Origin: Vicinamibacteria bacterium
GTDB lineage: Bacteria > Acidobacteriota > Vicinamibacteria > Fen-336
Direction of reading: 5' to 3'
Length of the DNA: 56,352 nt
NCBI GenBank assembly: GCA_016934575.1
Contig: JAFGSN010000178.1
Span: forward strand, 1 to 56,352
Part shown: positions 18,138-25,462 of the stretch, piece after piece
How positions within the stretch are numbered: position 1 is the first letter of the stretch
Layout of the letters: each line of letters starts with the position of its first letter
Notes under the pieces: generated by a model
The model's database searches: none
What the model was told of the DNA's origin: nothing
What the model saw: only the letters and a program-made list of their open reading frames with translations
Position numbers and translations under genes: made by a program

Positions 18138-19615
18138 GCGCCCTCCGAGCCCCGGTCTTTCGTCGCGCCGAGGAGCCCTCTCACGATTTCACGGTCATCG
18201 AAGGGCACGACACGGTCGCGCAACTGCTGAGTGCGTTCGTGCCCTTTTCCGGCGATGACGACGACGTCGCCTGTCTCCGCCATCTCGAGCGCGCGGGCGA
18301 TGGCCTCGCGACGATCGATGACGCTCAGCCGCTCGGCGCCTCGCGAGCCGTTCATGCCTCGTTCGACGGCCTCGATGATCGCTTCGGGCGGTTCGCCGCG
18401 CGGGTTGTCCGAAGTCACGATCACGACGTCGCTCAAACGCGCGGCAACTGCGCCCATCAGCGGTCGCTTCGTCGCGTCACGATCTCCTCCACAGCCGAAC
18501 ACGGTCAACACGCGCCTTGGCTTGAGCTGCCGGATCGTCTCCAGCAGCTTGCGGATGGCGTCGTCGGTGTGAGCGTAGTCCACGATCACGGTAAATCCCT
18601 GCCCCATGTCAATGCGTTCGAGCCGGCCCGGCACGCCGCGCACGCCGCTCAGACCCGAGAGCGCTTCCGCGGGCTCGATTTCCAGGGCAAGCGCCGCTCC
18701 CAGCGCCGCCAGCAGATTCTCGACGTTGAATCGCCCCACGAGCGGCGACTCGACGGTGAAGTCGCCGACAGGCGTCCGCGCCTTGAAGCACGTTCCGTCG
18801 AGCGATAGCGATACGCTTTCGGCGCGCAGATCCGCCGGTTTCTCAAGGCCGAACGTCCACACGCGTCCCTTGACGGCGGCGGCGATCTCGTGCCCGCGAT
18901 CATCGTCCGTGTTGACGATCGCCGTGCCCCGCGTCTTGAGACGCTCCACAAAAAGACGTCGCTTGGCGGAGAAGTACGAGTCCATGTCGCCGTGGAAATC
19001 AAGGTGATCCCGAGTCAGATTCATGAACACGGCGACCTCGAAAGAGCATCCGCGCACGCGTTCGAGCATGAGCGAATGCGAGGAAACCTCCATCACGACA
19101 TGCCGGCATCCCGCCGTGAGCATGTCCCGCAGCAGCGCCTGGAGGTCCGAGGACTCGGGCGTTGTGCGCGAGGCTTCCACGATCTGGTCGGCGAACCTGT
19201 ACTCCACGGTGCCGAGGAGCCCGGGCGCGCGTCCCGCCGCTCGTAAAGCCGACTCGATGAGATAGCAGGTTGTGGTCTTGCCGTTGGTGCCCGTGACGCC
19301 GACAAGCGTCATGGCGTCCGCAGGCCGATCGAACAGGACGGCCGAGATCTCGGCCAACGCGACGCGTGCGTCGGTCACCTGTATCCAGGCGCCTCCTGGA
19401 AGAGGCGGCCCCTCGGAGATGACGACTTTCGCCCCGCGACGGCGCGCGTCGTCGACGTAAAGGTTGCCGTCCTCTAATCGACCGCGAATGGCCACGAACG
19501 CGGAGCGGATGGTCGCCTTTCGCGAGTCGTAACAAACGCCGTCGATCGGCTCGTCGGGATCACCGGCGCAAAGCTTGGCGTCCGGCAGCGTGGCCACAAG
19601 CTCCCCGATCCTCAT
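18134..19615 (-). CDS. murE: UDP-MurNAc-dipeptide--meso-diaminopimelate ligase MurE
   Basis: MurE adds the third residue of the stem peptide. The protein of about 493 residues has DSRKATIRSAFVAIRG near its start, the P-loop GVTGTNGKTTT, and the C-terminal motif SDNPRGE. DNPR is the determinant for meso-diaminopimelate, whereas lysine-adding enzymes differ there, so the cell wall is predicted to be DAP-type. The start is ATG 19615, whose last bases overlap the ftsI stop; the open frame upstream of it belongs to ftsI DNA. A GAGAGGCGGGG stretch upstream can serve as the ribosome site. Confidence 0.96.
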   Translation of the reverse strand: MRIGELVATLPDAKLCAGDPDEPIDGVCYDSRKATIRSAFVAIRGRLEDGNLYVDDARRRGAKVVISEGPPLPGGAWIQVTDARVALAEISAVLFDRPADAMTLVGVTGTNGKTTTCYLIESALRAAGRAPGLLGTVEYRFADQIVEASRTTPESSDLQALLRDMLTAGCRHVVMEVSSHSLMLERVRGCSFEVAVFMNLTRDHLDFHGDMDSYFSAKRRLFVERLKTRGTAIVNTDDDRGHEIAAAVKGRVWTFGLEKPADLRAESVSLSLDGTCFKARTPVGDFTVESPLVGRFNVENLLAALGAALALEIEPAEALSGLSGVRGVPGRLERIDMGQGFTVIVDYAHTDDAIRKLLETIRQLKPRRVLTVFGCGGDRDATKRPLMGAVAARLSDVVIVTSDNPRGEPPEAIIEAVERGMNGSRGAERLSVIDRREAIARALEMAETGDVVVIAGKGHERTQQLRDRVVPFDDREIVRGLLGATKDRGSEGA

Positions 19616-21669
19616 GCGCCCCGCCTCTCCGTGAAATCGGATGGCGTGGGATCGTTGTCGAGAGTCAGCACGCATGTGTCGCCGGCGCTGACAACGGATC
19701 CGGGCTGCGGATCCTGTTGCGACACACGACCGAATCCTCTCAGCCTGACAACAAGTCCATGTTTCGCCGCGGTCACCGCCGCATCTCGAGCCGACCGCCC
19801 GTGAAGATCAGGCATGACGCCTTCCGTGACGACGGCTGGCATCTGCCGTGTAAAAACGTCGACCTTCAAGGAAGACGCCGTCCCGGCCGGCGAGTCATTC
19901 AACGTGACGCGCATGACTCGACGAGGATCCTCCGGCGGGACCGCCAGACGCCGCAACGCCTGGTCGGCTATGCGCGCAAAGAGCGGCGCGGCCACGTCCC
20001 CGCCCTGGTTTCGTAAGCCTCGCGGCGTGTCCAGCGAGACGAGTATGACCATGGCGGGGTTGTGGGACGGCACGTATCCCACGAAGGAAGCGAAATGATC
20101 CATGGCTGAATAACCGCCGCTGGCAACCGGCTTCTGCCCCGTTCCCGTCTTGCCCGCCACCTGATAACCGGCGAGAGCCGCCGCCTTGCCCGTGCCATGG
20201 CGCACGACGCCCTTGAGGATCTCCGTCATCGTGTCGGCGGTCGCGGGTTGAATGACGCGCCTGACGACCACGGGCTGAAACGTCTTGACGGCCTTTCCGT
20301 CGCGGTTTTCAATCCGTCGCACGACGAGCGGTTGCATGAGATAACCGCCGTTGGCGATGGCGGAAGCGGCGCTGGCCATCTGCAACGCCGTGACGCCGAT
20401 CTCCTGACCGAAGGAGATCGTCGGCAACGATCGGACGCTCCATCGCTCCGGCGGCCGCACGATGCCTCGCGACTCGCCGGGCAAAGCCACGCCCGTCGGC
20501 GCTCCGAAACCGAAATCCGCGATATATCGGGCGAAGCTCCGGCGGCCCAGACGTTGCGCCACGCGCGCCGCGCCGACGTCGCTCGATCGTGCGATCACTT
20601 CCCGAAAACGAAGGGCGTCGAACACGGCATGGTCGTTGATGACCTGACCGCCGACCTCGATCATGCCGTGGCCGCAATCGATGACCTCGTCGGGATCGAC
20701 GACTCTTTCATCGAGCGCCGCGGCGGCGGTGATGATCTTGAAAATGCTCCCGGGTTCGAAGGCGTCGACCACGGCGCGATTGCGCCAATGGGAGCTGTCG
20801 TAAGCCGAGAAACGGTTCGGATTGAAAGTCGGGCGATTGGCGAGAGCCAGAATCTCGCCCGAAGTCGGATCGAGCACGACCGCCACTCCGGCCAGCGATG
20901 CGGTTTCGTTCACCGCGCGGTCGAGCTCCCGCTCCACGACATGCTGGATCGCCTCATCGATCGTGAGCACGACCGTCAATCCTTCGGTCGACGGCCGCTC
21001 CGTATAACCCACCGGTCGTCGATGAGCGTCGGTGCGCACCACGACCGTGGCTTCGTGTCCACGAAGCGCGTCGTCAAACGCGTATTCGACGCCCCACATT
21101 CCGGTGTTGTCGATTCCGGCGTAGCCGATAAGCTGCGCGGCCAGCTCACGCTTCGGGTAATAGCGTCGCGTCTCGGTGAGAAAACCCACGCCATGGATCT
21201 TCAAAGCCTTCACGGCGCGCGCCATGGTCGGATCGACCTTGCGTTTGACCCACACAAAAGCCCGGTCGCGCTGAAGCTGAGCTCCAAGAGACCTGCGCTC
21301 CTTGGCGTGCAGCCGCAATGCGCGGGCCAGCGCCGCGGCCGCGGCGTCGGCGTCGGCGATGCTCTGGGGGTCGGCATAAATGCTCTCGACTTCAACGGAC
21401 ACGGCCAGCGGCCGTCCATGGCGGTCAAGAATGGGGCCTCTGCGCGGATCGAGACTGACGGTCCGCTCGCTTTGACGCTGCGCGCGCACGGCGAACTCAC
21501 GATGCTCGAGAATCTGCAATTGAACCAGGCGCAGGGCGATCACGAGCGCCCAGAGAACGATGCCGAGCGCCGCCATCATGAACCGCAGGCGCACCATCGG
21601 CTCGGACGACGGGAGCGGCGCGCTCGGCGGATGTCGATCCTTGTCTCTAAGCAAATCGCCGTTCAACAC
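19612..21669 (-). CDS. ftsI: Septal transpeptidase FtsI (PBP class B) with PASTA domain
   Basis: FtsI cross-links septal peptidoglycan alongside FtsW. The protein of about 685 residues has a cytoplasmic tail, one membrane helix, the PBP dimer domain (RRGPILDRHGRPLA) and the transpeptidase domain with EPGSIFK (SxxK) and AGKTGTG (KTG). The second motif reads SSD in RSSDVGAAR rather than the commoner SxN. A PASTA domain of about 65 residues closes the protein (VMPDLHGRSARDAAV), as in SpoVD-like and acidobacterial or deltaproteobacterial FtsI. Start is GTG 21669 with GGAGAG upstream, 25 bases after ftsL; upstream in-frame codons lie inside ftsL. Confidence 0.94.
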   Translation of the reverse strand: MLNGDLLRDKDRHPPSAPLPSSEPMVRLRFMMAALGIVLWALVIALRLVQLQILEHREFAVRAQRQSERTVSLDPRRGPILDRHGRPLAVSVEVESIYADPQSIADADAAAAALARALRLHAKERRSLGAQLQRDRAFVWVKRKVDPTMARAVKALKIHGVGFLTETRRYYPKRELAAQLIGYAGIDNTGMWGVEYAFDDALRGHEATVVVRTDAHRRPVGYTERPSTEGLTVVLTIDEAIQHVVERELDRAVNETASLAGVAVVLDPTSGEILALANRPTFNPNRFSAYDSSHWRNRAVVDAFEPGSIFKIITAAAALDERVVDPDEVIDCGHGMIEVGGQVINDHAVFDALRFREVIARSSDVGAARVAQRLGRRSFARYIADFGFGAPTGVALPGESRGIVRPPERWSVRSLPTISFGQEIGVTALQMASAASAIANGGYLMQPLVVRRIENRDGKAVKTFQPVVVRRVIQPATADTMTEILKGVVRHGTGKAAALAGYQVAGKTGTGQKPVASGGYSAMDHFASFVGYVPSHNPAMVILVSLDTPRGLRNQGGDVAAPLFARIADQALRRLAVPPEDPRRVMRVTLNDSPAGTASSLKVDVFTRQMPAVVTEGVMPDLHGRSARDAAVTAAKHGLVVRLRGFGRVSQQDPQPGSVVSAGDTCVLTLDNDPTPSDFTERRGA

Positions 21670-21694
21670 CGCGCGTCTCTCCTGCCCATTGCCG

Positions 21695-22111
21695 TCAGTT
21701 CCGTGAAGCCTTGACGCTTTCCAGAGCGCTGACCATCTGTGTGCCGCCGGGAGACTGTTCCACACGCACAATCACCACGTCTTCGGGTCGAGGCGCGATC
21801 ATTCCCAGCTCACGCGTTGAGATGGCCTCGATTCGTTGAAGGTTCTCGAGCGAGGCCTTCTCCAGGCGCAGCTTGAGATTAATCTCGACCAGACGCTCGC
21901 GTTCTCGATGCAGCGCAAGCGTCTCTATGCCCGTCTGAAACGCCTCGATCTGCGGCCAGGCGTACAAAACCACGCCGCCCACCAGCGCGCCGATCAGGCA
22001 CAGCAACGACCACAATCGCCGGCTCGACCGCGGATCCACCTCGCGGACCAGACGCGAGTTGTCGATCGGGCGGGACAAGGAGCCGATGCCGTCAAGGCTG
22101 CGCCAGCTCAT
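21695..22111 (-). CDS. ftsL: Cell division protein FtsL
   Basis: FtsL is a small bitopic protein that forms a coiled-coil complex with FtsB and FtsQ and activates FtsWI. This 138-residue version has a cytoplasmic N-tail of about 35 residues, one membrane helix (LWSLLCLIGALVGGVVLYAW) and a heptad-rich periplasmic segment with ERERLVEINLKLRLEKASLE. The family is poorly conserved, so identification rests mainly on topology, size and position between rsmH and ftsI. ATG 22111 overlaps the rsmH stop (ATGA) and follows GAGGAGG. Confidence 0.85.
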   Translation of the reverse strand: MSWRSLDGIGSLSRPIDNSRLVREVDPRSSRRLWSLLCLIGALVGGVVLYAWPQIEAFQTGIETLALHRERERLVEINLKLRLEKASLENLQRIEAISTRELGMIAPRPEDVVIVRVEQSPGGTQMVSALESVKASRN

Positions 22112-22992
22112 GCCGCCTCCTCGCGCGCCACGGCACGCAGCCGCGCGCTCCGGCACCGCGGGTTCGCGATCTTCTCGGCTTCAGACGGACGAATCGGCTT
22201 CCGGCTCAACAACCGGAAGCCGTGCCCGGCGAGCTCACGGAAGGCCAGCTTGACCTGGCGATCCTCGAGACTGTGAAAGGAGATCACCGCAAGCCTGCCG
22301 CCGGGCGCAAGTCGATGCGCCAGAGCGGACAGAATCGCATCGAGACCCTCAAGCTCGCGGTTGACGCGGATGCGCAGCGCCTGGAAAGTTCGCGTCGCGG
22401 GATCGAGACCGCGGCGACGCGAACGCGGCGACGCGCGCCGCACGATCGACGCCAGCTCCGTGGTGGTGGTGATCCGCCCGCGACGGCGAGCCGCGACAAT
22501 CGCGCGCGCGATGCGACGAGCCGCGGGATCTTCGCCGAACTGATGAATGATCTCGGCCAACTCGCGCTCGCGCGTGCGATTCACGAGATCCTCCGCAGTA
22601 ACGTGCTGGCCGCGGTCCAGGCGCATGTCGAGCGGCCCTTCCATCGAGAAGCTGAATCCGCGCAGCGGATCGTCAAGCTGGCGGGAGCTGACGCCCAGGT
22701 CCAGCAGAACGCCGTCGGCGCGCCTTTCGGCCAGGATGTCGGCCAGCTCGCGAAAATCAGCGTGCATGAAGACGACACGCTCACCGAAGCCGGAGAGATG
22801 GGCCTGCGCCAAGACGAGCGCCTCCCTGTCGCGGTCCAGGGCCAGAAGTCGTCCGTTCGGCGCGGAACGGCGCAGAATCTCCAAGGCATGGCCGCCCAAT
22901 CCCACGGTCCCGTCGACATACAGGCCGCCCGGTCGCACGTGGAGCAACTCCATGGCCTCGGAGAGCAGCGCCGGTTTATGCTCGAAGGACAC
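22108..22992 (-). CDS. rsmH: 16S rRNA C1402 N4-methyltransferase RsmH (MraW)
   Basis: RsmH uses S-adenosylmethionine to methylate N4 of C1402 in 16S rRNA, near the decoding site. The 294-residue protein opens HKPALLSEAMELL, has the SAM loop VDGTVGLGGHA, the family segment LLDLGVSSRQLDDPLRGFSF and the C-terminal ISFHSLEDRQVK, all diagnostic. It is the first enzyme after the mraZ genes and starts 2 bases after the mraZ1 stop. Length is slightly below the usual 300-315. Confidence 0.97.
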   Translation of the reverse strand: MSFEHKPALLSEAMELLHVRPGGLYVDGTVGLGGHALEILRRSAPNGRLLALDRDREALVLAQAHLSGFGERVVFMHADFRELADILAERRADGVLLDLGVSSRQLDDPLRGFSFSMEGPLDMRLDRGQHVTAEDLVNRTRERELAEIIHQFGEDPAARRIARAIVAARRRGRITTTTELASIVRRASPRSRRRGLDPATRTFQALRIRVNRELEGLDAILSALAHRLAPGGRLAVISFHSLEDRQVKLAFRELAGHGFRLLSRKPIRPSEAEKIANPRCRSARLRAVAREEAA

Positions 22993-22994
22993 AT

Positions 22995-23444
22995 TCAGAT
23001 CCCGTACTCCGAAAGCGCCCTCCCGTCCTCGTCCGTGTACGGCTCTTGCTTGAAGAGACGCTCCTGGAGCCGTTTGAGGTTCCAGACCGCCAGATGGTTC
23101 TGAAAGCCGAGCACGCTGACTTCTCCGGTCATCGCCGCCGTCTCACGAAGCATCTGAGGCAGCAGCACGCGTCCCTGCCGATCGATAGTGACCGCCTGCC
23201 CGAAGAAACTGACGCGCTCAAGGAAGCGGTTTTTTGATGGATTCGTCGCCGGAACGGATGCGAGACGCTTCTCGATCTCGATCCATATCGGCATCGGATA
23301 CAACCGCACGAACTCACCCGTGATGCTCGTGACATAGAGATCTCGACTCCACTGAGACACAACGGGCGACAGGAACGCCTGAGGGATCTTGAGGCGCCCT
23401 TTGGCATCGACCCGCGCCGGGTGATTTCCACGCAGCATCGTCAT
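22995..23444 (-). CDS. mraZ: MraZ transcriptional regulator, copy 1
   Basis: MraZ is an AbrB/SpoVT-like DNA-binding protein, usually a ring of 8-12 subunits, that represses the dcw promoter by binding TGGGN repeats. This 149-residue copy has both half-domains, marked by RVDAKGRLKIP and TIDRQGRVLLPQ, with DxKGR/DxxGR intact. The N-terminus (MLRGNHPARVD) and the longer middle (ITGEFVRLYPM, NPSKNRFLERV) are of the type I recall from Acidobacteriota. It starts at ATG 23444 (or 23438). Three CCCAC repeats spaced exactly 10 bases lie about 50 bases upstream, so it probably controls rsmH-ftsZ and itself. Confidence 0.93.
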   Translation of the reverse strand: MTMLRGNHPARVDAKGRLKIPQAFLSPVVSQWSRDLYVTSITGEFVRLYPMPIWIEIEKRLASVPATNPSKNRFLERVSFFGQAVTIDRQGRVLLPQMLRETAAMTGEVSVLGFQNHLAVWNLKRLQERLFKQEPYTDEDGRALSEYGI

Positions 23445-23491
23445 AACGGATTACTGCGAGAACCTCAGGAACTAGGGACACTCAGAGCGTC

Positions 23492-23522
23492 CCCAGCCCA
23501 CTTTTTCCCACAGATTCCCACT
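23492..23522 (-). promoter_or_regulatory. MraZ operator upstream of mraZ1
   Basis: On the plus strand CCCACT, CCCACA and CCCACT start at 23497, 23507 and 23517, exactly 10 bases apart; another CCCA is at 23492. Read leftward these are GTGGG repeats one helical turn apart, matching the TGGGN boxes known for MraZ in E. coli and mycoplasmas. The array lies in the gap between mraZ2 and mraZ1, 53 bases before the mraZ1 start, implying a promoter here for the main dcw operon. Confidence 0.75.
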
Positions 23523-23563
23523 GCGAAGTCTACGGCGGCCCGGAGCCCGCTGTCAAGAGAAAT

Positions 23564-24055
23564 TCAACGCTTTCTAAGGTTTCGGTTGTGGATAGACGCC
23601 GTTTCCATCCCTGAAACCGGGGGCGCGGGCCAGAGATCCGAAGAGAGATCTTCGAGGATGTGATCCGAATCACGCAGAAAGGCCGTCCAAGCCTCGGGAG
23701 ACCAGATCTCGAATCGATTCAGAACGCCGACGATGAGCGCTTCTCGGACGAGCCCGGCGTCTTCTCGGAGCGTTCCAGGCAGAAGAATCCTTCCCTGGAC
23801 ATCCAGCTCGCACTCGACGGCTCGACTCATGAGGAGTCGCGTCAGCGCTTTGACCGGACGACTGAAGACCGGAAGTCCACGGAGTTGATCCTCGAGTCGC
23901 GTCCATTCCTCGATGGGATAGATCGAAAGGCACTGATCCATCAGTGTGACGATCACTCGATCCGCTTGCCCAAGAGCAAGTTGCCGCCGAAAGGCCGCAG
24001 GCACCGGAACACGTCCCTTGGCATCGATGCGGTGGCGATACGTTCCCTTGAACAT
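23564..24055 (-). CDS. mraZ: MraZ transcriptional regulator, copy 2
   Basis: A second MraZ-family regulator of about 163 residues. It begins in the most common MraZ form, MFKGTYRHRIDAKGRVPVPA, and carries the second half-domain motif ELDVQGRILLPGTLRED. The C-terminus extends about 20 residues beyond copy 1. The two copies are clearly diverged paralogues rather than a recent duplication. ATG 24055 is the family start; in-frame codons farther upstream lie in the promoter region. It heads the leftward cluster and is divergent to folC. Its own 10-bp repeat array starts 12 bases before its ATG and differs in sequence from the copy 1 array, suggesting separate DNA specificities. Confidence 0.93.
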   Translation of the reverse strand: MFKGTYRHRIDAKGRVPVPAAFRRQLALGQADRVIVTLMDQCLSIYPIEEWTRLEDQLRGLPVFSRPVKALTRLLMSRAVECELDVQGRILLPGTLREDAGLVREALIVGVLNRFEIWSPEAWTAFLRDSDHILEDLSSDLWPAPPVSGMETASIHNRNLRKR

Positions 24056-24066
24056 ACGCCGAAATT

Positions 24067-24096
24067 CTTCCACACTTTTATCCACTTTTCCACACT
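24067..24096 (-). promoter_or_regulatory. Putative second MraZ-type operator, mraZ2/folC interval
   Basis: Three 10-base units fill this stretch. On the plus strand their cores CCACACT, TCCACT and CCACACT end at 24076, 24086 and 24096. Read leftward the unit is about AGTGTGGAAA, against AGTGGGAAAA in the first array. The unit nearest the gene includes the GGAAG that is the best ribosome site for mraZ2, so binding could block both transcription and translation. The array is also in the upstream region of folC. Confidence 0.6.
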
Positions 24097-24172
24097 CGAC
24101 GCCGACTCTCTGGGATTTCCGGGTCGCTATTCGCTTGTTATCATCCGACCGCCAGATGAAGGTTTCCGAATC

Positions 24173-25462
24173 ATGAGATCGCAGCGATCGTTTGACGAGG
24201 CTCTCGCATATCTGCATTCCCGCACTCCCGCGGGCATCGGCTTCCGGCTCGACGCCATGCGCGTGCTCGTTTCAGCTCTCGATCATCCGGAACATGCCTT
24301 TCCCGTTCTGCTCGTCGCCGGAACGAATGGAAAGGGGTCGGTCGTCGCCTATGCGGCGGAAGCGCTGCGCGCGTCCGGTCATCGCGTGGGGCGGTACACA
24401 TCACCTCATCTCGTCCGCATACAGGAACGCATTACGATCGACGGCGAGACGATCGACGATGCTGCGTTTGCCGAAGCCGTGCATGAGGTGCGCGACGCCG
24501 GCCGACGATTGGTCGCGCAGCGACGGATCGTCGATCACCCCACGTTCTTCGAGGCGCTGACGCTGGCGGCTTTTCTCGAGTTTCGCCGTCAACGCATCGA
24601 CGTCGCCGTCATCGAGGTTGGAATGGGAGCGCGTCTCGACGCGACCAACGTCACCGCGCCCTTGTGCTCGGCGATCGTCAGCATCGCGCTCGACCACGAG
24701 CGCTTTCTCGGCGACACGCTCGCAGCCGTTGCGCGCGAGAAGGCCGGCGTGCTCCGCGGTGAACGCGTGACCGTATTGGGTCCTCTGGAGCGGGAAGCCG
24801 CCACCGAGGTGGAAAAGCGAGCGCACGAGATCGGCGCGCTACTGCTCCCGGCGGCCGATGGCGTCGAGGTGCGGGATGACGGTCATCGACTGGACATTCG
24901 AACGCCGCGCCATCGCTACGTCGACGTGAGACCGCTTCCGGGCGCGTTTCAACGCACGAACCTCATCGTGGCGCTCCGGCTTCTCGAAAGCGCGGCCGAA
25001 ACCGGGCTGACGTTCGATCCCGAGCGGGCGTCTTCCGGCTTGCGACGCGTCGCATGGCCGGGCCGGCTCGAGTGGGTATCGGGCGAGCCTCCGGCCTTGC
25101 TGGACGGCGCGCACAATCCGGCCGCGGCGGCGGTCCTGGCCGAGGAAGTTCGGTCACGCGGCCCGTTCGTCCTTCTATTCGGCGTCATGCGGGATAAAAA
25201 TATCGCCGAAATCGCTCGCGCGCTCTTCCCCCTGGCAAAACATATCGTGCTCACGAGTCCGCGCGCCGAACGCGCGGCGACGCCGGAAGAGATCCTGGAG
25301 CGCGCCGGCCACGTCGCTGCGGGCGCGCACTGCGAACCGGACTCGCACAAAGCGTACGATCTCGCGTGCAAGCTGGCGGCGCCGGATGAATTTGTCCTCG
25401 TGGCGGGCAGTCTGTATCTTGTCGGCGAGGTGCGTTTTTTGCTCAATCCGAGAACGGGATGA
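24173..25462 (+). CDS. folC: Folylpolyglutamate/dihydrofolate synthase FolC
   Basis: FolC uses ATP to add glutamate to folates and, in many bacteria, to dihydropteroate. It is a Mur-ligase relative. The 429-residue protein has the P-loop VAGTNGKGSV, the segment RYTSPHLVRIQERI, the omega-loop text VIEVGMGARLDATN, and the C-terminal DGAHNPAAA, all typical. ATG 24173 is chosen because the product then begins RSFDEALAYLHS as in the family; the frame is open far upstream but only through antisense mraZ2. It is divergent from mraZ2 and shares a 117-base control region with its repeat array. Confidence 0.95.
   Translation: MRSQRSFDEALAYLHSRTPAGIGFRLDAMRVLVSALDHPEHAFPVLLVAGTNGKGSVVAYAAEALRASGHRVGRYTSPHLVRIQERITIDGETIDDAAFAEAVHEVRDAGRRLVAQRRIVDHPTFFEALTLAAFLEFRRQRIDVAVIEVGMGARLDATNVTAPLCSAIVSIALDHERFLGDTLAAVAREKAGVLRGERVTVLGPLEREAATEVEKRAHEIGALLLPAADGVEVRDDGHRLDIRTPRHRYVDVRPLPGAFQRTNLIVALRLLESAAETGLTFDPERASSGLRRVAWPGRLEWVSGEPPALLDGAHNPAAAAVLAEEVRSRGPFVLLFGVMRDKNIAEIARALFPLAKHIVLTSPRAERAATPEEILERAGHVAAGAHCEPDSHKAYDLACKLAAPDEFVLVAGSLYLVGEVRFLLNPRTG

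Follow-up and report, generated by a model that had tools for sequence, protein, structure and literature searches.

The closest described counterparts of the locus analyzed here are the autoregulatory MraZ systems of E. coli and B. cenocepacia, in which mraZ comes first in the cluster and the MraZ operator, consisting of repeats one turn apart, lies behind the -10 box and over the start site (PMC7761207), and the MraZ site of the Mollicutes, (AAAGTGKN3)3 with K being G or T, whose three units follow each other in 10-bp steps (PMC5282649). The Mollicute protein also binds, with comparable strength, the HsdC site, in which the repeats are spaced 1 nt differently (PMC5282649). MraZ has no clearly established role, and its loss from E. 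coli is without apparent phenotype (PMC8475190). The present locus resembles the E. coli and B. cenocepacia systems at promoter P1, where array 1 occupies the equivalent place behind the -10 element, and resembles the Mollicute site at array 2, which fits the three-unit GTGK pattern. It differs from the former in that there are two arrays and two mraZ genes whose ancestries differ, array 2 probably overlapping its promoter instead of following it, and from the Mollicutes, which have one MraZ and one array, in that T-G-T and G-G-G are fixed at the K position of two putative operators of a single cluster.

The window, by which we mean the whole stretch of 56,352 nt that was analyzed, comes from a Vicinamibacteria bacterium (order Fen-336) with a genome of 4.0 Mb. 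Its minus strand carries mraZ2, mraZ1, rsmH, ftsL, ftsI, murE, murF, mraY and murD in this order, a dcw cluster in which rsmH, ftsL and ftsI were identified via Pfam and the Mur and MraY names derive from reading the translations (Table 1). Both mraZ genes precede rsmH, ftsL and ftsI, the position characteristic of MraZ. The FtsI-type penicillin-binding protein of the cluster (19612-21771, minus strand) bears a C-terminal PASTA domain.

Table 1. Features at the head of the dcw cluster (positions in the window)
Feature	Position	Strand	Description
rsmH (mraW)	22108..22992	-	Pfam Methyltransf_5, 328.6 bits; next dcw gene after mraZ1
mraZ1	22998..23438	-	147 aa, MLRGNHPARVDAKGR...; Acidobacteriota-type MraZ, adjoins rsmH; stop codon 22995-22997
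Array 1	23495..23524	-	three 10-bp GTGG units 5' of mraZ1, K = G-G-G
Promoter P1 of mraZ1	23527..23556	-	TTGACA-18-TAGACT by consensus scan
mraZ2	23567..24055	-	163 aa, MFKGTYRHRIDAKGR...; "other-phyla" type MraZ; stop codon 23564-23566
Possible promoter P2 of mraZ2	24064..24092	-	TGGAAA-17-AAGAAT inside array 2; 4/6 per hexamer by eye
Array 2	24069..24098	-	three 10-bp GTGK units 5' of mraZ2, K = T-G-T; core TGTGGAAAAGTGGATAAAAGTGTGGAA at 24068-24094
folC-like gene	24173..25462	+	Mur_ligase_M/C; divergent from mraZ2

Each protein has two matches to the Pfam MraZ family (PF02381; 66.7 bits for mraZ1 and 109.8 bits for mraZ2 against a cut-off of 23, with both halves above it) and a DxxGR motif in each half (DAKGR/DRQGR and DAKGR/DVQGR in the two proteins). 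An initial sequence-only reading had described two intact and diverged MraZ regulators with both half-domains; these matches and motifs bear it out, as does the strong divergence of the proteins, which share 25-28% identity. Although Pfam, fold and synteny agree on mraZ1, it scores only 70.1 bits with the general MraZ equivalog TIGR00242 (cut-off 98.35), which mraZ2 passes at 134.5 bits. AlphaFold monomer models of both proteins (mean pLDDT 82.6 and 83.3) were searched with Foldseek, and for each of the two all 16 matches at E <= 0.001 were MraZ, including the M. genitalium MraZ-promoter complexes 9r4j and 9sz7. The sequence-only reading was right about the mraZ1 gene but placed its start at 23444, whereas the relatives keep an MLRG start at 23438, conserved in 16 genomes.

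In a search for three GTGK units spaced at 10 bp, both arrays score 14.0 and no other place in the window exceeds 6.5; chance as their origin was rejected, since none of 4000 first-order Markov resamplings per upstream region attained 14. Both display the layout of MraZ operators, at least three repeats with a GTG core at 10-bp intervals ahead of mraZ, in 16 genomes, and both are very probably MraZ operators. On the coding strand, array 1 reads GCAGTGGGAA TCTGTGGGAA AAAGTGGGCT, and the three CCCAC repeats reported before mraZ1 are indeed present at 23497, 23507 and 23517. Array 2 reads CGAGTGTGGA AAAGTGGATA AAAGTGTGGA; its three units and 10-bp step were correctly recognized at the outset, but it lies 2 bp further upstream than the 24067-24096 originally assigned to it. 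Its middle unit contains AGTGG, not AGTGTGG, so that the array reads T-G-T and does not consist of three equal units.

Array 1 starts 3 nt behind the -10 hexamer of P1, and conservation in its vicinity begins before the array, at the promoter itself, whose TTGACA- and TAGACT-like hexamers are kept both within the order and elsewhere in the class. There, in other orders, the lone mraZ genes follow a promoter of this type and GTGG arrays in which K is G in all 36 units, and G likewise occupies this position in all 30 array units from Acidobacteriota of other classes. On this account, array 1 is taken as the native operator and mraZ1 as the native gene. The array 1 pattern has a single match per genome, at mraZ1, in the 13 of 13 family f1 genomes that have mraZ; in family f2 the array is a variant, TGGAAAATATTGGCCAAAAGTGG, that keeps the 10-bp steps.

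The conservation around array 2 is organized differently. The motif TGTGGAAAnGTGGn7TGTGGAA is found at this position in 16 of 16 genomes, and information content jumps exactly at the array, from about 0.2 bits per base upstream (0.5 in the last 15 bp) to 1.7-2.0. The search pattern was built from these same 16 sites, so the informative part of its one match per genome is the absence of further ones, even at up to two mismatches; a reversed pattern, used as a control, gave zero matches in the order's genomes. A wider regulon did not emerge, as the specific patterns of both arrays matched only their own genes, at that stringency, in these genomes. The distance from array 2 to the mraZ2 start codon is nearly constant at 38-42 nt, and this, together with the onset of conservation at the array, suggests that P2 lies inside array 2, which would then span the -35 to -10 region and leave the mraZ2 message almost leaderless. 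A consensus promoter scan at array 2 found none, P2 included. Array 2 also keeps a GGAA after TGTG that the known consensus for MraZ does not require; it may belong to a promoter element, to a DnaA box or to a more extended recognition sequence of MraZ2. In family f2 (L005, L006, L007), array 2 has a fourth unit, AAACTGGGGA, and ends a few bases before the start codon. A folC-like gene lies upstream of mraZ2 in divergent orientation in 13 of 16 loci, with array 2 in the intergenic region that the two genes share (the stretch between array 2 and folC is 24099-24172 in the window), and the array could therefore also influence folC.

The tandem pair, with its four half-domains in a row, occurs together with both arrays in all 16 genomes of the order that have any mraZ, a co-occurrence in relatives to which the sequence-only reading had looked for support; a seventeenth genome, 63% complete, shows no mraZ. 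The rest of the class has one mraZ per genome, and the assertion that most bacteria have a single MraZ agrees with most of the Acidobacteriota in a sample of 396 genomes. In trees built on about 145 columns, mraZ1 is placed in one group with all Acidobacteriota MraZ, and mraZ2 among the sequences from other phyla, the dividing branch having a support of 100/99, and the split persists under a mixture model with long rows removed. It is thus very likely that MraZ2 was acquired from outside rather than recently duplicated, probably by horizontal transfer, and a single acquisition in the ancestor of the order would fit its distribution. As to the exact donor, the best node, which joins mraZ2 to Desulfobacterota and Myxococcota rows, has a support of only 93/70.

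The cluster is headed throughout the order by a gene pair of differing ancestry and by arrays of conserved geometry, with one site of each kind per genome. We lean, with some reservation, toward a model in which these constitute two autoregulated MraZ units, native MraZ1 with array 1 and acquired MraZ2 with array 2, that differ at least in affinity. An MraZ of another lineage would have been acquired in the order's ancestor and inserted upstream of mraZ1, placing the units in series: P2, array 2 and mraZ2, followed by P1, array 1 and mraZ1-rsmH-ftsL-ftsI-mur. The native MraZ1 would stand behind a sigma-70 promoter, with array 1, the class-wide operator, over the start region, and would probably repress mraZ1-rsmH-ftsL-ftsI-mur by blocking RNA polymerase. 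Meanwhile, mraZ2 would have a promoter of its own under array 2, an MraZ-type operator, at which MraZ2 probably regulates itself, possibly also influencing the divergent folC and transcription that reads through into the cluster. Cross-regulation between the units may occur in either direction. We infer that MraZ binds both arrays, that MraZ2 prefers array 2, and that the output is repression.

Could the second unit have arisen in place, or could its array serve another protein? The term paralogues, used in the sequence-only reading, finds no support if taken to mean a local duplication, as the two genes are not sisters and a single clade of the order's mraZ1 and mraZ2 is rejected (p-AU 0.006). 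The same test bears on an older origin by duplication within the cluster, with mraZ2 diverging rapidly from mraZ1 and retaining a copied operator: while the tandem placement and the shared 10-bp array logic are what such an event would leave behind, the placement of the two genes on opposite sides of the dividing branch, the rejected common clade and the passing of TIGR00242 by mraZ2, but not by mraZ1, make it very improbable. A still older duplication followed by many losses is, strictly speaking, conceivable. Similarly remote is the idea that array 2 is mainly a DnaA-binding site coupling mraZ2 or folC to replication and not an MraZ operator. With the DnaA-box consensus TTWTNCACA, unit 1 of array 2, which on the plus strand is TTTTCCACA, the reverse complement of TGTGGAAAA, fits in 13 of 16 genomes, the same 9-mer also occurs upstream of dnaA in four genomes (G000, G004, G008, G012), and the GGAA discussed above is conserved past the MraZ consensus. 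However, unit 2, which shares 1 bp with the unit 1 box, matches in 0 of 16, unit 3 does so in six of 16, and two boxes coexist in five of 16, short of the conservation of at least two 9-mers that marks a DnaA-box cluster. Where the unit 1 box is broken (G003, G005, G010), the 10-bp spacing of TG persists and the middle unit changes to GTGGGG or GTGGGA; moreover, three units in 10-bp steps directly before an mraZ are the MraZ pattern. A facing pair of DnaA-box-like sites (TTTTCCACAnnTGTTGAAATCTCTGTGCAAAA in most members) is conserved before dnaA itself (L174-L179).

If both arrays are indeed MraZ operators, do the two proteins read different DNA? The K position is T-G-T in array 2 and G-G-G in array 1 in 16 of 16 genomes each, which, the genomes being related, do not represent 16 independent events; the array 2 of family f2 was read by eye as T-G-T-G. 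That this difference has been kept for so long argues that it matters in some way. One explanation is a shared regulon, in which the two MraZ, separately or in mixed rings, each recognize both arrays and the T or G is tolerated drift or a promoter constraint. The Mollicute site permits either base and the HsdC site is bound comparably (PMC5282649), AAAGTGGNNN and AAAGTGTGGA, units of array 2, agree with (AAAGTGKN3)3 as determined by experiment (PMC5282649; PMC8475190), and in Desulfobacteraceae, with apparently one MraZ at the loci examined, the first array unit often has K = T. Both arrays are thus within the binding range of one MraZ, and array 2 may be a target for either of the two proteins. 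The G/T difference need not signify the separated DNA specificities proposed in the sequence-only reading, and its two-regulator circuit for the division operon is likewise conjectural. Its middle unit is GTGG, as in array 1, and the DxxGR motifs of both halves are retained in both proteins. Nonetheless, we regard a shared regulon as a serious but rather doubtful account, for drift would not hold T-G-T and G-G-G in every genome across two families, and the low identity of the proteins renders mixed rings less likely. That each protein clearly prefers its own array is a closer call, although we would place it somewhat below an even chance. In a comparison of the two proteins, 16 columns were fixed differently, none of them in a DxxGR loop, and the sequences therefore point to no specificity residue; K17 of MraZ1 is invariant, and its counterpart position in MraZ2 is variable. 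A fully insulated pair, with distinct operator codes (TG-T vs TG-G in the outer units) throughout the order serving two successive division-cluster promoters without cross-talk, possibly as a cross-repressing switch, appears unlikely.

MraZ and its arrays are already known, but a literature search that covered few subscription papers returned no description of a second mraZ in the cluster, nor of two MraZ of different ancestry that persist across an order together with two conserved, differing arrays. An order that keeps two MraZ of different ancestry along with their operators offers a natural experiment on MraZ specificity, and on why two are kept. Outside this order, the 396 Acidobacteriota genomes contain a second full MraZ in four instances, on separate contigs in G243 and G305 and in tandem in G080 and G092. 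In the former two, both of family f39 (L120, G243:C16; L121, G305:C182), an other-phyla-type second MraZ lies apart from the native gene; for that of G305, contamination (7%) is possible. The tandem pair of family f31, which belongs to another Acidobacteriota class (L117, G080:C51; L118, G092:C8), parallels the present one in gene order, with an other-phyla-type MraZ first and an Acidobacteriota-type MraZ second, and in having two differing arrays, AGTGGGGAAAAGTGGG and GTGGACTAAAGTGGAC. Its arrays, however, are of the GTGGGG and GTGGAC types, and in the tree its first MraZ is placed beside a Myxococcota row and not with mraZ2; given this separate placement, the tandem arrangement arose at least twice.
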